Below, piece after piece: positions 38,111-46,817 of a stretch of 52,627 nucleotides of DNA. Origin of the DNA: Natrinema thermotolerans DSM 11552 (lineage in GTDB: Archaea; Halobacteriota; Halobacteria; Halobacteriales; Natrialbaceae). The stretch covers positions 50,856 to 103,482 of the forward strand of contig AOIR01000048.1 in assembly GCA_000337115.1 (NCBI GenBank). The letters are read 5' to 3'. Each line of letters begins with the position of its first letter. The first letter of the stretch is position 1. A program made the translations under genes and the position numbers. The notes below the pieces were generated by a model. That model saw nothing but the letters and a program-made list of their open reading frames with translations. It did not search any database and was not told the origin of the DNA.

Positions 38111-40249
38111 ATGTCCAGCGATCAACAGGAGCCAGTCAAGACGATCTGTCCGTACTGCGGGGTCGGCTGCGGGATCAAAGTACAGCCTGGCGAAGAGCCC
38201 GGCGACGTTCGGTTCATGCCCTGGGGCGAGGCCCCGGTCAACGAGGGCCGGATCTGCATCAAGGGCGGCGCGGCGACGGAGGTAGTCGACCACGAGGACC
38301 GGCTCATCGAGCCACGGATCAAGGAAAACGGCGAGTTCCGCGAGGCCTCCTGGGAGGAGGCCTACGAGTACGTCGTCGACGAACTCGAGCGGATCCGTGA
38401 GGCGTACGGCCCGGACGCGATGGGCTTTTTCGGCTCCTCGAAGGTGATGAACGAGGAGAACTACCTGCTCCAGAAGCTGGCCCGCCGGTACGGCACCAAC
38501 AACGTCGACAACTGCACGCGGATGTGCCACGCCTCGACGGTCTGGGCGCTGCGAACCAGTCTGGGCGCGGGGGCGATGACCAACAGCATGCGCGACCTCC
38601 GCGAAGAAGCCGACGTGTTCTGGATTCAGGGCGCGAACCCGGGCGAGCAACACCCCATCGCCAACAGCCAGTACTTCCGGCAGGCGGTACTGGAGGGCGC
38701 GACGGTCATTCAGGTCGACCCCCACGCGAACAAGACGACGCGGTCGTTTCAGATCGGCGACACGGAACGCCACCAGCACCTGCAGTTGAACCCCGGGACC
38801 GACATCCCGCTGCTGAATATCGTCCTGAAGACGATCCTCGAGCATCACGAGGAAAACCCCGAGGACGGCTGGATCGACGAGGAGTTCGTCGCGGAGCGGA
38901 CCGAGGGATTCGACCACCTCAAAGCGACGCTCGAGGACTTCGACAAGCAAGCGGCGGCCGAGGAGTGCGGCGTCTCGCTCGAGGACATCGAACTGGCCGC
39001 GAAGAAGTACGCCGAGGCCGACAACGCGGCCATCTTCACCGGGATGGGGATGAGCCAGCACGCCTGTGGCGTCGACAACGTCCAAAACGAGATCAACCTG
39101 GCGCTGATCACGGGCAACCTCGGCCGGCCCGGCACCGGCGTCAACCCGCTGCGGGGCCAGAACAACGTTCAGGGGACCTGTGACGTCGGCGCGATGCCGA
39201 ACGTCCTCCCGGGCTATCAGCTGGTCGACGACGACGAGGCCCGCGAATCGGTCGAAGACGTCTGGGGGTTCGAAATCCCCGACGAGCCCGGGCTGACGAA
39301 CGTCGAGATTTCCTACGAGGCGGGCGACTCGATCAAGGGCCTCTACGTCATGGGCGAGAACCCGGTGATGAGCGAACCCGACGCCAACGCCGTCGCCGAG
39401 CGACTCGCCGACCTCGAGTTCACCGTCGTCCAAGACATCTTCCACACCGAAACGGCGGACTACGCCGACGTGATCCTCCCGGCGACGACGTGGGCCGAAC
39501 GCGGCGGGACCGTCACCAACACCGACCGACGCGTCCAGCGGATGCGCGGCGTCGGGAAAGTCCACGAGAACACGAGACACGACCGGGAGATCCTGACCGA
39601 GATCGGGACGCGGCTGTTCGATGCGGGTTTTGACTTCGACGATCCCGAGGAGATCTTTGAGGAACTCCGGCAGGTCTGTCCCAGCTACCACGGGATGACC
39701 TACGACCTGCTCGGCGAGGAGGGGCTGCACTGGCCCTGCTACGAGCCCGGCGACGAGGGCGATCCGTTCCTCTACGAGGACGAGTTCGAGACCGAGAGCG
39801 GGCTGGGCCACATCGAGGGGGTCGAACACACCCCGCCCGCGGAGACCCCCGACGACGAGTACCCGCTGATACTCACGACCGCGCGCCTCGAGGAACACTA
39901 CAACACCGGGACGATGAGTACCCGCTCGCCGACGCTGAACAAGCAAACCCCGGAGAACTTCGTCGACGTGCATCCCGCGGACGCCGAGCGCTACGGCATC
40001 GAGGACGGCGAGTACGTCCGGTTACACTCGCGGCGGGGCGAGATCACGCTCGAGGCCCGCGTTACCGACGACACCAAGGAGGGGGTCGTCTGGACGACGC
40101 CGCATTTCGCCGCCGCGTCGGCGAACAAGCTGACGAACCACGTCCTCGACGAGCGCGCGAAGATCCCCGAGTACAAGGCCGCCGCCGCGGAGATCGACGT
40201 CGAGGTCGAACCGCTCGGCGAGACCGCGGATCCGACGGCCGAGGACTGA
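38111..40249 (+). CDS. Formate dehydrogenase-like molybdopterin oxidoreductase
   Basis: A 712-residue bis-MGD enzyme of the formate dehydrogenase group. Cys13, Cys16, Cys20 and Cys49 bind a [4Fe-4S] cluster (CPYCGVGCG and GRICIKGG). The Mo ligand is Cys139 (NCTRMCHASTVWALRTSLGAG), with the adjacent His140 characteristic of FdhF-type enzymes. No Tat signal is present, so it is cytosolic. There is no linked diaphorase, electron-transfer subunit or FdhD, hence the electron partner is unknown. mobA and yqeC nearby can supply the cofactor. Other Mo enzymes of the family (e.g. assimilatory nitrate reductase) have Cys but lack the CHxxTV motif. Confidence 0.85.
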   Translation: MSSDQQEPVKTICPYCGVGCGIKVQPGEEPGDVRFMPWGEAPVNEGRICIKGGAATEVVDHEDRLIEPRIKENGEFREASWEEAYEYVVDELERIREAYGPDAMGFFGSSKVMNEENYLLQKLARRYGTNNVDNCTRMCHASTVWALRTSLGAGAMTNSMRDLREEADVFWIQGANPGEQHPIANSQYFRQAVLEGATVIQVDPHANKTTRSFQIGDTERHQHLQLNPGTDIPLLNIVLKTILEHHEENPEDGWIDEEFVAERTEGFDHLKATLEDFDKQAAAEECGVSLEDIELAAKKYAEADNAAIFTGMGMSQHACGVDNVQNEINLALITGNLGRPGTGVNPLRGQNNVQGTCDVGAMPNVLPGYQLVDDDEARESVEDVWGFEIPDEPGLTNVEISYEAGDSIKGLYVMGENPVMSEPDANAVAERLADLEFTVVQDIFHTETADYADVILPATTWAERGGTVTNTDRRVQRMRGVGKVHENTRHDREILTEIGTRLFDAGFDFDDPEEIFEELRQVCPSYHGMTYDLLGEEGLHWPCYEPGDEGDPFLYEDEFETESGLGHIEGVEHTPPAETPDDEYPLILTTARLEEHYNTGTMSTRSPTLNKQTPENFVDVHPADAERYGIEDGEYVRLHSRRGEITLEARVTDDTKEGVVWTTPHFAAASANKLTNHVLDERAKIPEYKAAAAEIDVEVEPLGETADPTAED

Positions 40250-40254
40250 CCCGC

Positions 40255-41112
40255 TCAGGGTTCGGACGGCGACTCGTCCGCGAGGGCGAGGCCGGCAACC
40301 TCGAGCCACGGGTCGGCCGCCGATTCGGCGACGGCGAGTTCGACGAGCGGCCGGTCGCAGTCCTCGCAGACGGCCCGAATCGCGACGCGGGGCCGCCGAC
40401 AGCAGTGATCGCGACGGTCGGCGGCGGTCGTCACCGCTCCGCCACAGATCGGACAGCGATCCCGGAGCAGCCGGACCCCTCGAAGGAGGTCGCGGCGCTC
40501 GTCGGTTTCGAGGTCGTCCCAGCCCTCGAGGCGGGCGCGAAGCAGCGGGGCCGCAGCGACGTCGGCCCGCAGCGCCGCGGGCGATTCCCAGCGGACGCGT
40601 TTGCGGCCGTCGACGACGAACGCGGCGTCGTCGATCCGTTCGATGTCGTCCGCACCCAGGATCGACGCGACGGCGGCGGCGCTCGGTTCGGCCGGCCCGT
40701 CGCTCGAGGAGTCGTCGACCCACCGCTTCCGGGCGGTCGCAGTCGGTCGGAGGTCACCCGCCCGGTCGGTCGCGATCCCGGTAGCGAGCAGGACGTCCGT
40801 CACCTCCGTGGGCGACGCGGTCTCGATCGTCGCCTGCGGCGACGGCGTCTTGCCGAACAGCGCGAGAACGCGATCGGGGAGATACCGCCGGGTAAGCGTC
40901 GGCGTCCCGGGGAGCAGGTAGCCGCGGTAGCGGACGACGACGAGACAGCCGGCGAGTACGAGCGCGCCGACGGACGGGGCGACGGCGATCCCTGCCGCGA
41001 TCCCGGCGGCGACCGCGATCACGATGTTGACGGCCGTACACGGCCAACACCGGTTCTCACCGACGTACGCCGGCTGCTCGAGGCGCGTCCGGAGGTCGCG
41101 GAGATCGATCAC
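40255..41112 (-). CDS. Membrane-anchored protein with C-terminal zinc ribbon
   Basis: A 285-residue protein with an early CWPC motif in VGENRCWPCTAVN, two hydrophobic helices (IVIAVAAGIAAGIAVAPSVG, ALVLAGCLVVVRYRG), then a cytosolic part. The C-terminal part carries CPICGG (residues ~215) and CCRRPR with CEDCDRPL, a zinc-ribbon-like Cys set. Function unknown. It converges on the FDH-like gene and is separated from the PQQ operon by a 260-base palindrome-bearing gap. Confidence 0.65.
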   Translation of the reverse strand: MIDLRDLRTRLEQPAYVGENRCWPCTAVNIVIAVAAGIAAGIAVAPSVGALVLAGCLVVVRYRGYLLPGTPTLTRRYLPDRVLALFGKTPSPQATIETASPTEVTDVLLATGIATDRAGDLRPTATARKRWVDDSSSDGPAEPSAAAVASILGADDIERIDDAAFVVDGRKRVRWESPAALRADVAAAPLLRARLEGWDDLETDERRDLLRGVRLLRDRCPICGGAVTTAADRRDHCCRRPRVAIRAVCEDCDRPLVELAVAESAADPWLEVAGLALADESPSEP

Positions 41113-41319: not shown

Positions 41320-41340
41320 CTTTGATAAGCATTATCAAAG
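41320..41340. promoter_or_regulatory. Perfect palindrome 1 upstream of the PQQ operon
   Basis: CTTTGATAA and TTATCAAAG separated by GCA, a 21-base palindrome with 9-bp arms. It is the AT-rich block where a TATA box for a short-leader transcript would lie. Confidence 0.65.
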
Positions 41341-41355
41341 CACGTGATGGCGTTC

Positions 41356-41381
41356 TTTGTGCCGTGGTATCATGGCACAAA
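41356..41381. promoter_or_regulatory. Palindrome 2 overlapping the first start codon
   Basis: TTTGTGCC (41356-41363) and GGCACAAA (41374-41381), perfect 8-bp arms with further partial pairing inside. The ATG of the first gene lies in the right half (41372). Centres of the two palindromes are 38-39 bases apart, so they may bind one regulator on two faces. Confidence 0.6.
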
Positions 41382-42274
41382 TATCCACTGCGGCGAACAT
41401 GACAGCCGCGGAACAACGCGATCTGGCAGCGGTCCTCGGCGTCGACGATCCGTCGGACGGCGCGGTAACGTGGGCGGGGCTCGCGGGACAGATCGAACCG
41501 CGGTCCGACTCGTCCTTTGCCTCCCGTGGCGAAGCGATTCGGGCCGACCTCGATGGGCGACTCGAGCGGGACCGACTCGAGCGGGAACGGGAAAACATCG
41601 CGGCGGCGATCGGTCGCGTACCGGCGGTTCGCGACGGCGGCGTCCCCGACGGGACGGACGGCCCGTATACCGCGCTGGCGGCACCGGGCTGGCGACTGTA
41701 CGACCACCTGCTCGAGGCGGGCTTCTTCGAGAGTCTCGACGAGAACCTGCCGCGGTTTACCGCGGGACACATCGAGACGACGGTCCGCGAACTGGTACTG
41801 GCGGACCCGCTGTCGTCGGCGCTCGACGGCGTCGGGTTCGACGAGGCCGAGAAGACGGCACTGTTGACCGATGTCGCGAACAACAGCGAGCGGCTCGCGC
41901 GGTGGGTCCCGTCGAATGGGATCCCGGCGGGCGTCGAGTTCGAAACCGAGACCGTCCCACCGCTGCATCAGCGGGCGATGGGCGGGGCTTTGCTGTGGAT
42001 CCGCGGGCTCGACAGGCACCTCAGCCAGTACGAGGTTCTCGTCACCGACGAGATCCTCGACGACGCGGCCCAGTACACGAAGGCGATGCTGGGCGGGCTG
42101 TTCGTGACGGCGACGGCTGCCTGCGACCTCGTCGGGGACCGACGGCTCACCGACGAACAGTTGACCGCCGCGTTCACCGCGGGGTCGGCCGTCGGGATCG
42201 TCGCCCAAGAGGAACTGTGTCACTCCGTGTTCTACATCACGGACGAGATGCGCGCCCCGAGCGAACTGCGGTGA
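41372..42274 (+). CDS. Unrecognised helical protein, first gene of the PQQ operon
   Basis: A 300-residue protein with no domain I recognise. It is almost entirely helical by pattern: MTAAEQRDLAAVLGVDDPSD, LERDRLERERENIAAAIGRV, HIETTVRELVLADPLSSALD, AMGGALLWIRGLDRHLSQYE. The end is HSVFYITDEMRAPSELR, after QEELC. No signal peptide or membrane helix. A second ATG at 41399 is in frame; 41372 fits the palindromic promoter. It ends four bases before the PQQ gene, so it is probably an accessory, chaperone or PQQ-handling factor (inference). Confidence 0.7.
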   Translation: MAQISTAANMTAAEQRDLAAVLGVDDPSDGAVTWAGLAGQIEPRSDSSFASRGEAIRADLDGRLERDRLERERENIAAAIGRVPAVRDGGVPDGTDGPYTALAAPGWRLYDHLLEAGFFESLDENLPRFTAGHIETTVRELVLADPLSSALDGVGFDEAEKTALLTDVANNSERLARWVPSNGIPAGVEFETETVPPLHQRAMGGALLWIRGLDRHLSQYEVLVTDEILDDAAQYTKAMLGGLFVTATAACDLVGDRRLTDEQLTAAFTAGSAVGIVAQEELCHSVFYITDEMRAPSELR

Positions 42275-42278
42275 TACG

Positions 42279-43988
42279 ATGGCACTACGCAACGACAGGG
42301 CCGTTCAGGCCGCACGCGAGATCGAATTGAAAGAGATCGAGGACGGCTATACGCTCGTCGGGGGTCCCGATGAGGCAGTCACCGAACAACACGACACCGA
42401 CCGGATTCCCGAGGTCGACGTCGACCAGGAGATGCTGAGCGACACGGGCGAGGACCCCGAGTCCTGGCTCATGTACGGCGGCAGCTACGAACAACACCGC
42501 GCGACGCCGGCCGAGGTCATCACACCGGAGAACGTCGCCGACCTCGAGTTGGAGTACGAACTCTCGGTCGGGACGGGCTCGAGCATGGAGGGGACGCCGA
42601 TCGTCGTCCCGGGCGATCCGCCGGTGATGTACCAGACCAACGGGCCGAACCACATGAAGGCGATCGACCCCCGCGAGGGCGAGATCCTGTGGAGCTACAC
42701 CTACGCAGTCCCGATGGGCGTCGAGTTATGCTGTGACGACAACAACCGCGGGGCCGCCGTCCACGGCGACACGGTCTATATGACGACGCTCGACTCGGGC
42801 GTCGTCGCGCTGGACCGCTACACCGGTGAGGAGCGCTGGTACACGAGTACCGCCGACCACGAGGAGGGGTACTCGGCGACGTGGGCACCGGTCGTCCACG
42901 ACGGGACGATCTACACCGGTAGCGCCGGCGGCGAGTACGGCGTTCTCGGATTCATCGCCGCAATCGACGCCGAGAGCGGCGAGATACAGTGGCAAACCGA
43001 CACGCTGCTCGAGGACGAGTGGGTCGGTGCGAGCCGGGAACACGGCTGTGGGACGAGCTGGATGACGCCGACGATCGACGAGGAGGCGGGCGTCCTCTAC
43101 ACGGCGGTCGCCAACCCCGGCCCCGACTTCGATGGCACGGTACGGCCGGGGCCGAACTTCCCCACTTGTGGAACGATCTCGCTCGACCTCGAGAGCGGCG
43201 AGTTCCAGTGGGGGTTCCAGAGCAGTCCCCACGACGTCTGGGACTACGACGCGGTCGCGCCGCGCGTGCTGGTTCGGGACGTCGAGACCGACGACGGGTC
43301 GATGGACATGGTCGTCGGCTCGGACAAGACCGGCTGGGTGTACATGATGGACGCCGAGTCGGGCGACCTCCACGAGCGCAGCGAAGAGATCTGCCAGCAC
43401 ATCAATATGTGGGAGATGATCCCCCACATCAGCGAGGACGAGCGCGTCCCGTTCGTCCCCGGCGCGCCCGGCGGCAACGACTGGCAGCCGCCGTCGTACA
43501 ACCCCGAGACGGGACTGGTGTACGTGATCCACCAGAACTACCCGCAGGACCTCTACTGGCGCTACGAGGAGTTCAGCGAGGGCAACCCCTACTGGGGCGG
43601 CGGGTTGGCCGATCCGGCCAGCGAGTTCCCCGACGAGTGGAACGGCGCGATCACGGCCTTCGCGGCCGTCGATCCGACGACCGGCGAGCGCGTCTGGCGC
43701 GAATGGATCGAGAGCGAGGACGACCACTACATGTGGGGCGGCTCGCTGTCGACCGCCACCGGACTCGTCTTCAACGGCACCCAGAACGGCACCTTCGTCG
43801 CCTACGACGGCGAGACCGGCGACCGCCTCTGGGAGTACGAGTTCGACGTGCCGATCAGTGCCTCGCCGATGAGCTGGTACGACCCCGACGAGGGGAAGCA
43901 GTACGTCGCCGTGCAGGTCGGGGGCAGCGGCTGGCTCCGGCAGGGACCGCGCGGGGACACGCTCGCCGTGTTCTCGATGGAGGACTGA
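42279..43988 (+). CDS. PQQ-dependent alcohol dehydrogenase-type beta-propeller
   Basis: A 569-residue quinoprotein, eight-bladed propeller of the methanol/alcohol dehydrogenase family. The vicinal disulfide pair is Cys151-Cys152 in VELCCDDNNRGAAV. Likely metal/PQQ ligands are Glu219 (SAGGEYGVLG), Asn279 (VANPGPDF) and catalytic Asp322 (SSPHDVWDYDAV), with Asp324 at the position of the lanthanide-binding Asp of XoxF. Repeating W-docking motifs (GEILWSYTY, GERVWREWI, GDRLWEYEF) support the propeller. No signal peptide or Tat motif is seen, unlike bacterial periplasmic relatives. The substrate is unknown. Confidence 0.8.
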   Translation: MALRNDRAVQAAREIELKEIEDGYTLVGGPDEAVTEQHDTDRIPEVDVDQEMLSDTGEDPESWLMYGGSYEQHRATPAEVITPENVADLELEYELSVGTGSSMEGTPIVVPGDPPVMYQTNGPNHMKAIDPREGEILWSYTYAVPMGVELCCDDNNRGAAVHGDTVYMTTLDSGVVALDRYTGEERWYTSTADHEEGYSATWAPVVHDGTIYTGSAGGEYGVLGFIAAIDAESGEIQWQTDTLLEDEWVGASREHGCGTSWMTPTIDEEAGVLYTAVANPGPDFDGTVRPGPNFPTCGTISLDLESGEFQWGFQSSPHDVWDYDAVAPRVLVRDVETDDGSMDMVVGSDKTGWVYMMDAESGDLHERSEEICQHINMWEMIPHISEDERVPFVPGAPGGNDWQPPSYNPETGLVYVIHQNYPQDLYWRYEEFSEGNPYWGGGLADPASEFPDEWNGAITAFAAVDPTTGERVWREWIESEDDHYMWGGSLSTATGLVFNGTQNGTFVAYDGETGDRLWEYEFDVPISASPMSWYDPDEGKQYVAVQVGGSGWLRQGPRGDTLAVFSMED

Positions 43989-44015
43989 CCGACGACCGAT
44001 CACCACCACACAACA

Positions 44016-45134
44016 ATGTCGAACGAACAACGTTCACGCGACGACGTGTCCCGCCGCGGCGTGCTGCGAGGCACCGCGGCGATCGCCGGAACGGCCGCGG
44101 CCGGCACGGCGGGCGCGTACCGCGACGAGATCGACTTCCGACTGCCGGCCACGCAAAACGACGGCGCGGGCCGGACCCTCTCGCTGCTCGGTATCGTCGG
44201 CGGTTGGGTCGGCGTCGCCCCCGCCGAGATCGACGGCCGCTCGAACCCGCCGCTGCGACTGATCGAGGGCGAAGACCACGAGATCGTCTGGACGAACGGC
44301 GACGGCTCGCGGCACAACTTCACCCTCGAGGACGAGGACGGCAACGTGATCGAGGCGACCGACTTCGTCGAGGAGCAGGGCGAATCGACCTCGCTGACGG
44401 TCACCGCCGAGGAGGGGATGGCGGGCTACTACTGCGTTCCCCATCCCGTCCAGATGCGCGGCCCGATCGAACTGATCGACGTCGACGAGGTCCACGAGTT
44501 GCGGGTACGGGTCGAAGACGAGAACGGCGACCCACTCGGCGCGGAGGTGTTCGTCGGCGATCACCACTCCTTCTCCGACGTCGCCGCCAAACCGGGCCAA
44601 CAGGAGGAGGAAGCACCGCCCGCGGTCGCTCGCTTCGATATGCTCGAGGACGGGGAGTACGATGTCGAGGTCTGGACCTACGGCCACGAGCGACTGACCG
44701 ACACGGTGACGATCGACGGCGACGACGCCGCGTTCACCGCCACCCTGTCGGCGACCGAACCCGGCGACCCGGCCGAGACCTACTCGATGCGACTCGAGGA
44801 GGGGCGCTGGGTCGGGGTCGGCCCCGACGCCATCGCCGACGAGGAGAACCCGACGCTCGAACTCGAGGCCGGCGAGACCTACGCCCTCGAGTGGGAGAAC
44901 ACGATCGGACAACACCAGCCGGAAGCGGACAACCGGACCTACGAACCGCTGCCCGGCCACAACTTCGTGATCGCCAGCGGCGGCGACACGAACGAGTGGA
45001 ACACCTACGTCCGTTCGGACTTTCTCGACGAGGCCGGCGCGACCCAGACCGTCGAGTTCGTTGCGACCGAGGAGATGGCCGTCTACCTCGACCAGTCACA
45101 GCTCGACGCGGTCGGCGAGATCGACGTCCAGTAG
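44016..45134 (+). CDS. Tat-exported protein with two cupredoxin-like domains
   Basis: A 372-residue protein. SRRGVLRGTAAIAGTAAAGT (residues 12-31) is a twin-arginine signal, and no lipobox is obvious. Residues ~60-155 form a type 1 copper domain with His100 (GDGSRHNFTLEDE), Cys140, His143 and Met147 (GYYCVPHPVQMRG). Residues ~156-245 look like a small beta domain. Residues ~260-372 repeat the domain pattern (RWVGVGPDAI, then GHNFVIASGGD) but have lost the Cys/His/Met loop, so copper is not expected there. It is a likely electron acceptor for the PQQ enzyme and is exported; 27 bases separate the genes. Confidence 0.85.
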   Translation: MSNEQRSRDDVSRRGVLRGTAAIAGTAAAGTAGAYRDEIDFRLPATQNDGAGRTLSLLGIVGGWVGVAPAEIDGRSNPPLRLIEGEDHEIVWTNGDGSRHNFTLEDEDGNVIEATDFVEEQGESTSLTVTAEEGMAGYYCVPHPVQMRGPIELIDVDEVHELRVRVEDENGDPLGAEVFVGDHHSFSDVAAKPGQQEEEAPPAVARFDMLEDGEYDVEVWTYGHERLTDTVTIDGDDAAFTATLSATEPGDPAETYSMRLEEGRWVGVGPDAIADEENPTLELEAGETYALEWENTIGQHQPEADNRTYEPLPGHNFVIASGGDTNEWNTYVRSDFLDEAGATQTVEFVATEEMAVYLDQSQLDAVGEIDVQ

Positions 45135-45154
45135 CCCGCTGCCGGGCTCTTTTT
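45133..45154 (+). terminator. Hairpin plus T-tract after the PQQ operon
   Basis: AGCCCG-CTGC-CGGGCT followed by C and five T residues. It overlaps the last base or two of the stop codon region and resembles a bacterial intrinsic terminator. Confidence 0.6.
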
Positions 45155-46143: not shown

Positions 46144-46728
46144 CTACTCGTTTGGCACCTTATACGGGCGGTAGATCGCCGCGATCTCGAGGTCGACCGG
46201 CTCGAGCCCGGTGATGATGTCGTCCTCGGGAGAGAGGTCCTCGGCCTCCCACGCCTCGAGGTAGCTCAGGGCGTCCGCGCGGTCGGCGAACGCTTTGGGA
46301 TCGATTCCCATCGGATCGTCGACCGCCCGCTCGTCGGTGATGAGGACGTAGTGTGCCTCGGTCGCGTCGATCTGCTCGCCGGTTTCGCGATCGACCGTCC
46401 ACGCGCCGTCGATCGGCGAGTCCGGCGTCGACGAGACCACGTACGTGAACAGACACCCCGGCGACTCGAACACGGCTGCCTGCCCGTTCTCGTGACGGAG
46501 TTGGCTCGATTCGGGAAAGTCCGCGGCGGTCATCCCACAGACCGCACAGGACATCCCCTCGGGGTACTCGAACGGTCCCTCCTCGATGCCCTCGAGCGTC
46601 GGTTCGTACACCTGTGCGGGGGGGCCGTCATCGGACTCGCTCTCGCCGAGACAGCCGGCGATACCCACGCCCGTCCCCGCCGCGAGCGCACCGATGAATC
46701 GTCGCCGGTCGACCCCGTCGTCAGTCAT
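46144..46728 (-). CDS. NosL-family Tat lipoprotein
   Basis: A 194-residue lipoprotein. DRRRFIGALAAGTGVGIAGC is a twin-arginine signal with lipobox at Cys26. The copper-binding NosL motif is Met59-x-Cys61-x2-Cys64-x-Met66 (GMSCAVCGMTAADF). Downstream CLFTYVV and TEAHYVLITDERAVDDPMG are NosL-like. In denitrifiers NosL delivers Cu(I) to nitrous oxide reductase; no nosZ or nosDFY genes are in this window. A general copper carrier, perhaps for the cupredoxin of the nearby PQQ operon, is possible (inference). Confidence 0.88.
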   Translation of the reverse strand: MTDDGVDRRRFIGALAAGTGVGIAGCLGESESDDGPPAQVYEPTLEGIEEGPFEYPEGMSCAVCGMTAADFPESSQLRHENGQAAVFESPGCLFTYVVSSTPDSPIDGAWTVDRETGEQIDATEAHYVLITDERAVDDPMGIDPKAFADRADALSYLEAWEAEDLSPEDDIITGLEPVDLEIAAIYRPYKVPNE

Positions 46729-46817
46729 ACATCCCGGTAGGCCGGCAACGGGCAAAACGGGACTGGTTCGGGTGTCGAATCGCCCGATTGGGCTGCCGAC
46801 ACGTCACCGCGGCTCGG

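Follow-up and report, generated by a model that had tools for sequence, protein, structure and literature searches.

Lanthanide-dependent quinoprotein dehydrogenases such as PedH/ExaF and XoxF carry a D-x-D motif, which marks lanthanide coordination in the known enzymes, together with a vicinal cysteine pair and a set of PQQ and metal ligands (PMC11996626, PMC11845868). The motif has also been reported in the membrane glucose dehydrogenase (mGDH) of Escherichia coli (PMC11996626). Among archaea, PQQ dehydrogenases have been described in heterotrophic marine Thaumarchaeota, some with a DYD motif; 15 of 21 carry signal peptides, PQQ synthase was reported in the genomes and blue copper proteins were proposed as possible acceptors (PMC7300363), while the cysteine pair is absent from these enzymes (PMC7300363, PMC11845868). 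In the FAD glucose dehydrogenase, a small all-helical gamma subunit with a Tat signal exports the signal-less catalytic alpha subunit (PMC6719666).

Here, we analyse a locus of Natrinema thermotolerans DSM 11552, found within a haloarchaeal stretch of 52,627 nucleotides (the window) whose nearest relatives are in Natrinema, Natrialba and Haloterrigena. Its three genes encode a helical protein, a PQQ alcohol-dehydrogenase-type propeller (P0002) and a cupredoxin (P0003). The propeller shares the D-x-D motif, the cysteine pair and the PQQ and metal ligands with PedH and XoxF, and its best PDB matches are structures of PedH (6zcv/6zcw, 1.8e-66), with XoxF (4mae) among the top ones. Unlike PedH/ExaF and XoxF, it is archaeal, has no signal, has an obligate helical partner and a cupredoxin in its operon, scores below the TIGR03075 cut-off and belongs to a genome in which no PqqC was found. 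The Thaumarchaeota enzymes and the propeller are both archaeal quinoproteins, and only the latter has the cysteine pair. As its model gives no significant fold match, the helical protein can be likened to known hitchhiker subunits in its proposed function alone. The enzyme class differs from that of the FAD glucose dehydrogenase, the protein matches no Pfam family or PDB chain and, unlike the gamma subunit, it has lost its signal in the clade of the window. Finally, P0003 resembles haloarchaeal halocyanin-type cupredoxins in having a Tat signal and one type-1 copper domain; unlike them, it falls below the halocyanin cut-off (26.7 versus 93.8), has no lipobox cysteine and contains an extra, copper-less repeat. 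Searches of openly available papers turned up no account of such a module in haloarchaea.

The three open reading frames lie head to tail on the + strand: the helical protein (41372-42274, 300 aa from its ATG), the propeller (42279-43988, 569 aa) and the cupredoxin (44016-45134, 372 aa), separated by gaps of 4 and 27 nt. This order is kept in all 10 orthologous loci found in databases, and in a separate survey of Halobacteria the cupredoxin is the third gene in 15 of 15 loci of the window clade, including the window's twin (L001). The three genes form a conserved operon, and a discrete one as the original prediction had proposed, which probably encodes a quinoprotein alcohol-dehydrogenase module.

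That prediction had also described paired palindromes and a terminator around the operon, of which the first palindrome and the hairpin stand, while the second repeat is only partly conserved. The first is a perfect 9-bp inverted repeat (CTTTGATAA-GCA-TTATCAAAG, exact, 41320-41340) that occurs once in the window and in none of 100 shuffles, and 12 operons of the window clade share its core in their upstream regions. Some 25 bases before it stands a conserved TTTAG element, which would put the palindrome close to the start of transcription. It is likely an operator, and a regulator would probably bind it. The pattern was not found upstream of the propeller operons of other clades, and we therefore rejected it as a general site of the whole family. 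The start codon of the first gene falls within the second inverted repeat (TTTGTGCCGTG/CATGGCACAAA, 41356-41381), and the terminator-like hairpin (AGCCCGCTGCCGGGCT-CTTTTT, + strand, fold z -2.7), which comes after the third gene, occupies 45133-45154.

The propeller matches PF01011 well above the gathering cut-off (2.7e-52; 178.7 versus 26.7 bits), and its score against TIGR03075, the PQQ methanol/ethanol dehydrogenase model, is 365 bits over residues 47-550, below the curated cut-off of 480; it is therefore homologous to that family but outside the curated subfamily. Comparison with the PedH and XoxF structures shows that the vicinal cysteines, Glu, Thr, Trp, Asn, the catalytic Asp and Lys are kept, the cysteine pair being C151-C152 and the PQQ and metal ligand positions R157, E219, T259, W261, N279, D322 and K350; the pair and the ligand positions are conserved throughout the window clade. 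In PedH and XoxF the D-x-D falls at the position of D322-Y-D324, where the calcium-type enzyme 1flg reads D-F-S. Across the 54 homologues that we examined in detail (one further listed propeller, G291, was left out), D-x-D is universal, and outside the window clade the cysteine pair occurs only in clades A and C (defined below) and in one small group. The active site thus resembles that of lanthanide enzymes. The enzyme may use a lanthanide, and its substrate may be an alcohol; D-x-D is no proof of the former, because the E. coli mGDH is reported to have it too.

A propeller homologue is present in 49 of 292 Halobacteria genomes. The enzyme was originally described as lacking a signal peptide, and this description holds. 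Its N-terminus (MALRNDRAVQAAR) is near-invariant across the 10 orthologous loci, in the same or a closely variant form, and in most of these an in-frame stop precedes the ATG by one or two codons, while the open 5' extensions of the others encode no signal. Given the stops in most orthologues and the conserved start, we rejected a hidden upstream start with a signal. Furthermore, none of the 54 propellers has a twin-arginine motif followed by a hydrophobic stretch, the rule on which our Tat calls are mainly based. By contrast, the nearest bacterial relative to emerge from plasmids (36%) bears a hydrophobic signal at its own N-terminus, and a c-type cytochrome gene adjoins it.

What accompanies the propeller everywhere is the helical protein. 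Its gene lies directly upstream of all 54 propellers. Of its 75 copies in 284 Halobacteria genomes, 72 adjoin a listed propeller, and beside each of the remaining three there is a propeller that is either divergent or broken by an assembly gap. In a sample of 345 genomes from the phylum the family occurs in five, all Halobacteria and each time beside a propeller, and among plasmid records it occurs only in haloarchaea. Within this sample, it is an obligate partner of the propeller. The family has no relatives that we could recognise: neither the window protein nor a profile of its family has a match worth the name in Pfam, NCBIfam or the PDB sequences, and a search with its all-alpha AlphaFold model (pLDDT 82.8) returned no significant fold (best Foldseek E 0.53). 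Membership of PF12318, seen in one family member at E 0.08, was rejected as not significant, and the best Z of the fold search (8.4), to a designed helical repeat, is uninformative for a helical protein.

A Tat signal is present on this partner in 25 of the 54 pairs (for example, DRREFLKALGVGGAVAAGG), and the Pfam TAT_signal model matches 8 of 18 members tested. In a maximum-likelihood phylogeny that includes two bacterial outgroups, whose long branches make the root less certain than the inner groups, parsimony places the signal as ancestral and its loss on the branch to 26 sequences (support 99/96), with a second loss in a distant group. Because the signal is found in so many pairs and is ancestral on the tree, the helical protein is likely the export escort of the propeller. 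The 26 signal-less sequences comprise the window clade (clade B, 12) and clade C (14). In the window clade, the escort reads AEQRDLAAVLGVDDPSDG at the signal positions, its RR motif and hydrophobic stretch having decayed, and the cupredoxin is therefore left as the only tagged gene of the operon.

The cupredoxin had been predicted to be double and to be exported on a Tat signal, and that signal is confirmed: the protein, which matches Copper-bind (1.7e-8), contains SRRGVLRG and an uncharged stretch. It consists of a copper domain, a middle beta domain and a C-terminal cupredoxin-like repeat, so that there are indeed two cupredoxin-like repeats, but not two copper sites. The type-1 ligand set (His...Cys..His...Met) is complete in domain 1 only, where H100, C140, H143 and M147 are invariant in 11 sequences, while the C-terminal repeat keeps H315 and has lost Cys, His and Met. 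The model of P0003 is of low confidence (pLDDT 66.8), so that the fold of the second domain is deduced from the sequence repeat within the protein and from homology with the cupredoxin-like proteins of clade A.

Taken together, these observations suggest the following mechanism. The propeller and the helical protein would fold together in the cytoplasm as a stable complex, which would cross the membrane by Tat on a partner's signal, since the propeller never has one of its own; co-transport with a signal-bearing partner had been raised in the original prediction, and we uphold it as the likeliest export route. Ancestrally, the signal would have been on the escort; with its decay in the window clade, the tagged cupredoxin would be the only remaining linked carrier, and we infer that it now serves there as both carrier and electron acceptor. 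Outside the membrane, the enzyme, probably holding PQQ and a lanthanide or Ca2+, would oxidise an alcohol and pass electrons through the copper domain of the cupredoxin to the respiratory chain; its PQQ would be taken into the cell or acquired outside it. We would give this whole explanation, from escort complex and Tat co-transport to cupredoxin carrier/acceptor and scavenged PQQ, a probability of roughly 0.6.

The relatives of the window clade bear on this explanation in both directions. Clade A, sister to B and C together, has a Tat-bearing escort, a propeller and, about 120 nt downstream, a same-strand gene for a Tat cupredoxin-like protein. Two genomes (L062 and L105) have a Tat-bearing escort and, behind it, a signal-less propeller with a cupredoxin domain fused to its N-terminus; these fusions link the cupredoxin and the propeller functionally and imply that the escort exports the fused protein. 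Against the explanation, clade C (14 propellers; L075-L090, L097) keeps the escort-propeller pair without an escort signal and without a cupredoxin, so the pair can persist when no Tat partner is linked to it. The helical gene is thus constant (54/54 and 75/75), and the cupredoxin is not. The original prediction would have been refuted by propeller homologues consistently found without the other two genes, and this applies by half: propeller homologues do occur without the cupredoxin, never in our sample without the helical gene. The cupredoxin depends on lineage and is not the general carrier.

The main rival to export on a partner's signal is a cytoplasmic enzyme. According to this idea, the propeller and the helical protein of the window clade would stay in the cytoplasm, as may be the case in clade C, and pass electrons to a soluble acceptor such as ferredoxin; the cupredoxin, though exported, would be co-regulated and not a direct partner. 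Loss of the escort signal predates the split between clades B and C, and among 13 clade C loci there is no cupredoxin, while a 2Fe-2S ferredoxin is nearby in 10, CDC48 in 12 and an aldehyde:ferredoxin oxidoreductase in three; a public Halomarina plasmid carries the same set, oxidoreductase included. The formate dehydrogenase and formaldehyde-dehydrogenase-like enzymes encoded near window-clade operons are also of cytoplasmic type. However, the 12 clade B loci look different, with a Tat cupredoxin in all, NosL in seven, formate dehydrogenase in five and a 2Fe-2S ferredoxin in none. Moreover, the vicinal cysteine pair is conserved, bacterial enzymes of this kind are extracytoplasmic, and the fusions tie cupredoxin to propeller in relatives. 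These contrasts in partners rest on few evolutionary events and are suggestive, not statistical proof. A cytoplasmic location is thus plausible for clade C, whose propeller is possibly a cytoplasmic PQQ enzyme; for the window clade it is possible, though we consider it rather unlikely. It is tempting to speculate that both outcomes arose from one loss, in that a rare-earth-dependent, PQQ-scavenging haloarchaeal alcohol dehydrogenase was exported by a new Tat escort family until the escort's signal disappeared; in one lineage the cupredoxin, the electron acceptor, would then have taken over export, and in its sister the enzyme would have become cytoplasmic and ferredoxin-linked, a scenario that we put forward tentatively.

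Alternatively, the helical protein of the window clade could have become a cytoplasmic assembly chaperone with a TorD-like role, with export depending on a Tat partner encoded elsewhere. A candidate exists in the same genome, where contig 59 encodes a second escort, Tat-bearing and 41% identical to that of the window, next to a propeller without the cysteine pair; in addition, the window-clade escort has no signal, and its model matches the fold of no exported hitchhiker subunit. We find this improbable, as in other clades the family is exported by its own signal, and several clade B genomes (for example G143, G163 and G180, one match each) show no second copy in the survey. Contig 59 also encodes a fusion of a Tat cupredoxin with a GSDH-type sugar dehydrogenase (L025:9365-11461), and this fusion lies beside a cysteine-pair-less propeller and a Tat escort in all eight loci of that copy's clade.

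The supply of the cofactor deserves separate comment. The window had been noted to contain no PQQ synthesis genes, and for PqqC the absence extends much further: no PqqC scored above the cut-off in 284 Halobacteria, while the same search finds PqqC in a Sinorhizobium plasmid. Matches to PqqE were discarded as evidence of synthesis, being generic radical-SAM matches present in all control genomes as well. Therefore, PQQ is probably scavenged, by import or uptake outside the cell, or else formed by an unrecognised pathway. Bacteria that do not synthesise PQQ are known to scavenge it, as with the mGDH of E. coli. NMT1-type substrate-binding proteins are encoded near many propeller loci, and we would guess at PQQ as a candidate ligand and at these proteins as its carriers. 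The absence of PqqC, the score below the curated subfamily cut-off and a match to the TIGR04528 'acido-empty-quinoprotein' model (270 bits, below its cut-off of 650) could suggest an empty or non-enzymatic homologue, but this is very improbable given that every PQQ and metal ligand position is conserved in the window clade, as is the cysteine pair, that the active family TIGR03075 scores better (365 bits) and that bacteria without synthesis scavenge PQQ.

The genes around the operon hint at one-carbon or alcohol oxidation. Upstream lies a formate dehydrogenase alpha subunit (FdhF, 38111-40249, + strand; TIGR01591, 737 bits, cut-off 666), also found near 5 of 12 clade B and 5 of 5 clade A loci, and downstream a member of the NosL copper chaperone family (46144-46755, - strand; PF05573, 3.1e-8), found near 7 of 12 clade B loci. 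Beside the formate dehydrogenase, on the opposite strand, a conserved gene (40255-41112) without a Pfam or NCBIfam match has homologues near 9 of 12 clade B loci. The neighbourhoods that give this hint (the window, L008, L012 and L014) between them also encode a CobW GTPase, an HbpS-like protein and an enzyme resembling glutathione-independent formaldehyde dehydrogenase (TIGR02819, 347 bits, below cut-off). Also recurrent beside the operons are regulators whose ligand-binding domain is of the NMT1 type and groups of three NMT1-type binding proteins accompanied by a cupin (L009:3472-4752, L097:1-2846, L078-L094). Pairs of sodium:calcium-type antiporters, possibly linked to calcium or lanthanide handling, are encoded near several PQQ loci (L009:8983-11275, L014:9399-11766, L025:11577-13846, L097:12786-14936).

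Our analysis proposes a function for a haloarchaeal family that public records list as 'hypothetical protein', and it places complete lanthanide-type quinoprotein active sites, cysteine pair included, in archaea. It also raises the question of where PQQ comes from in organisms without a recognised PQQ pathway. Finally, the clades form a natural export series, with the tag on the escort, the tag on the acceptor, the acceptor fused to the enzyme, or no tag, so that haloarchaea allow a direct test of Tat co-transport and of how it switched during evolution.
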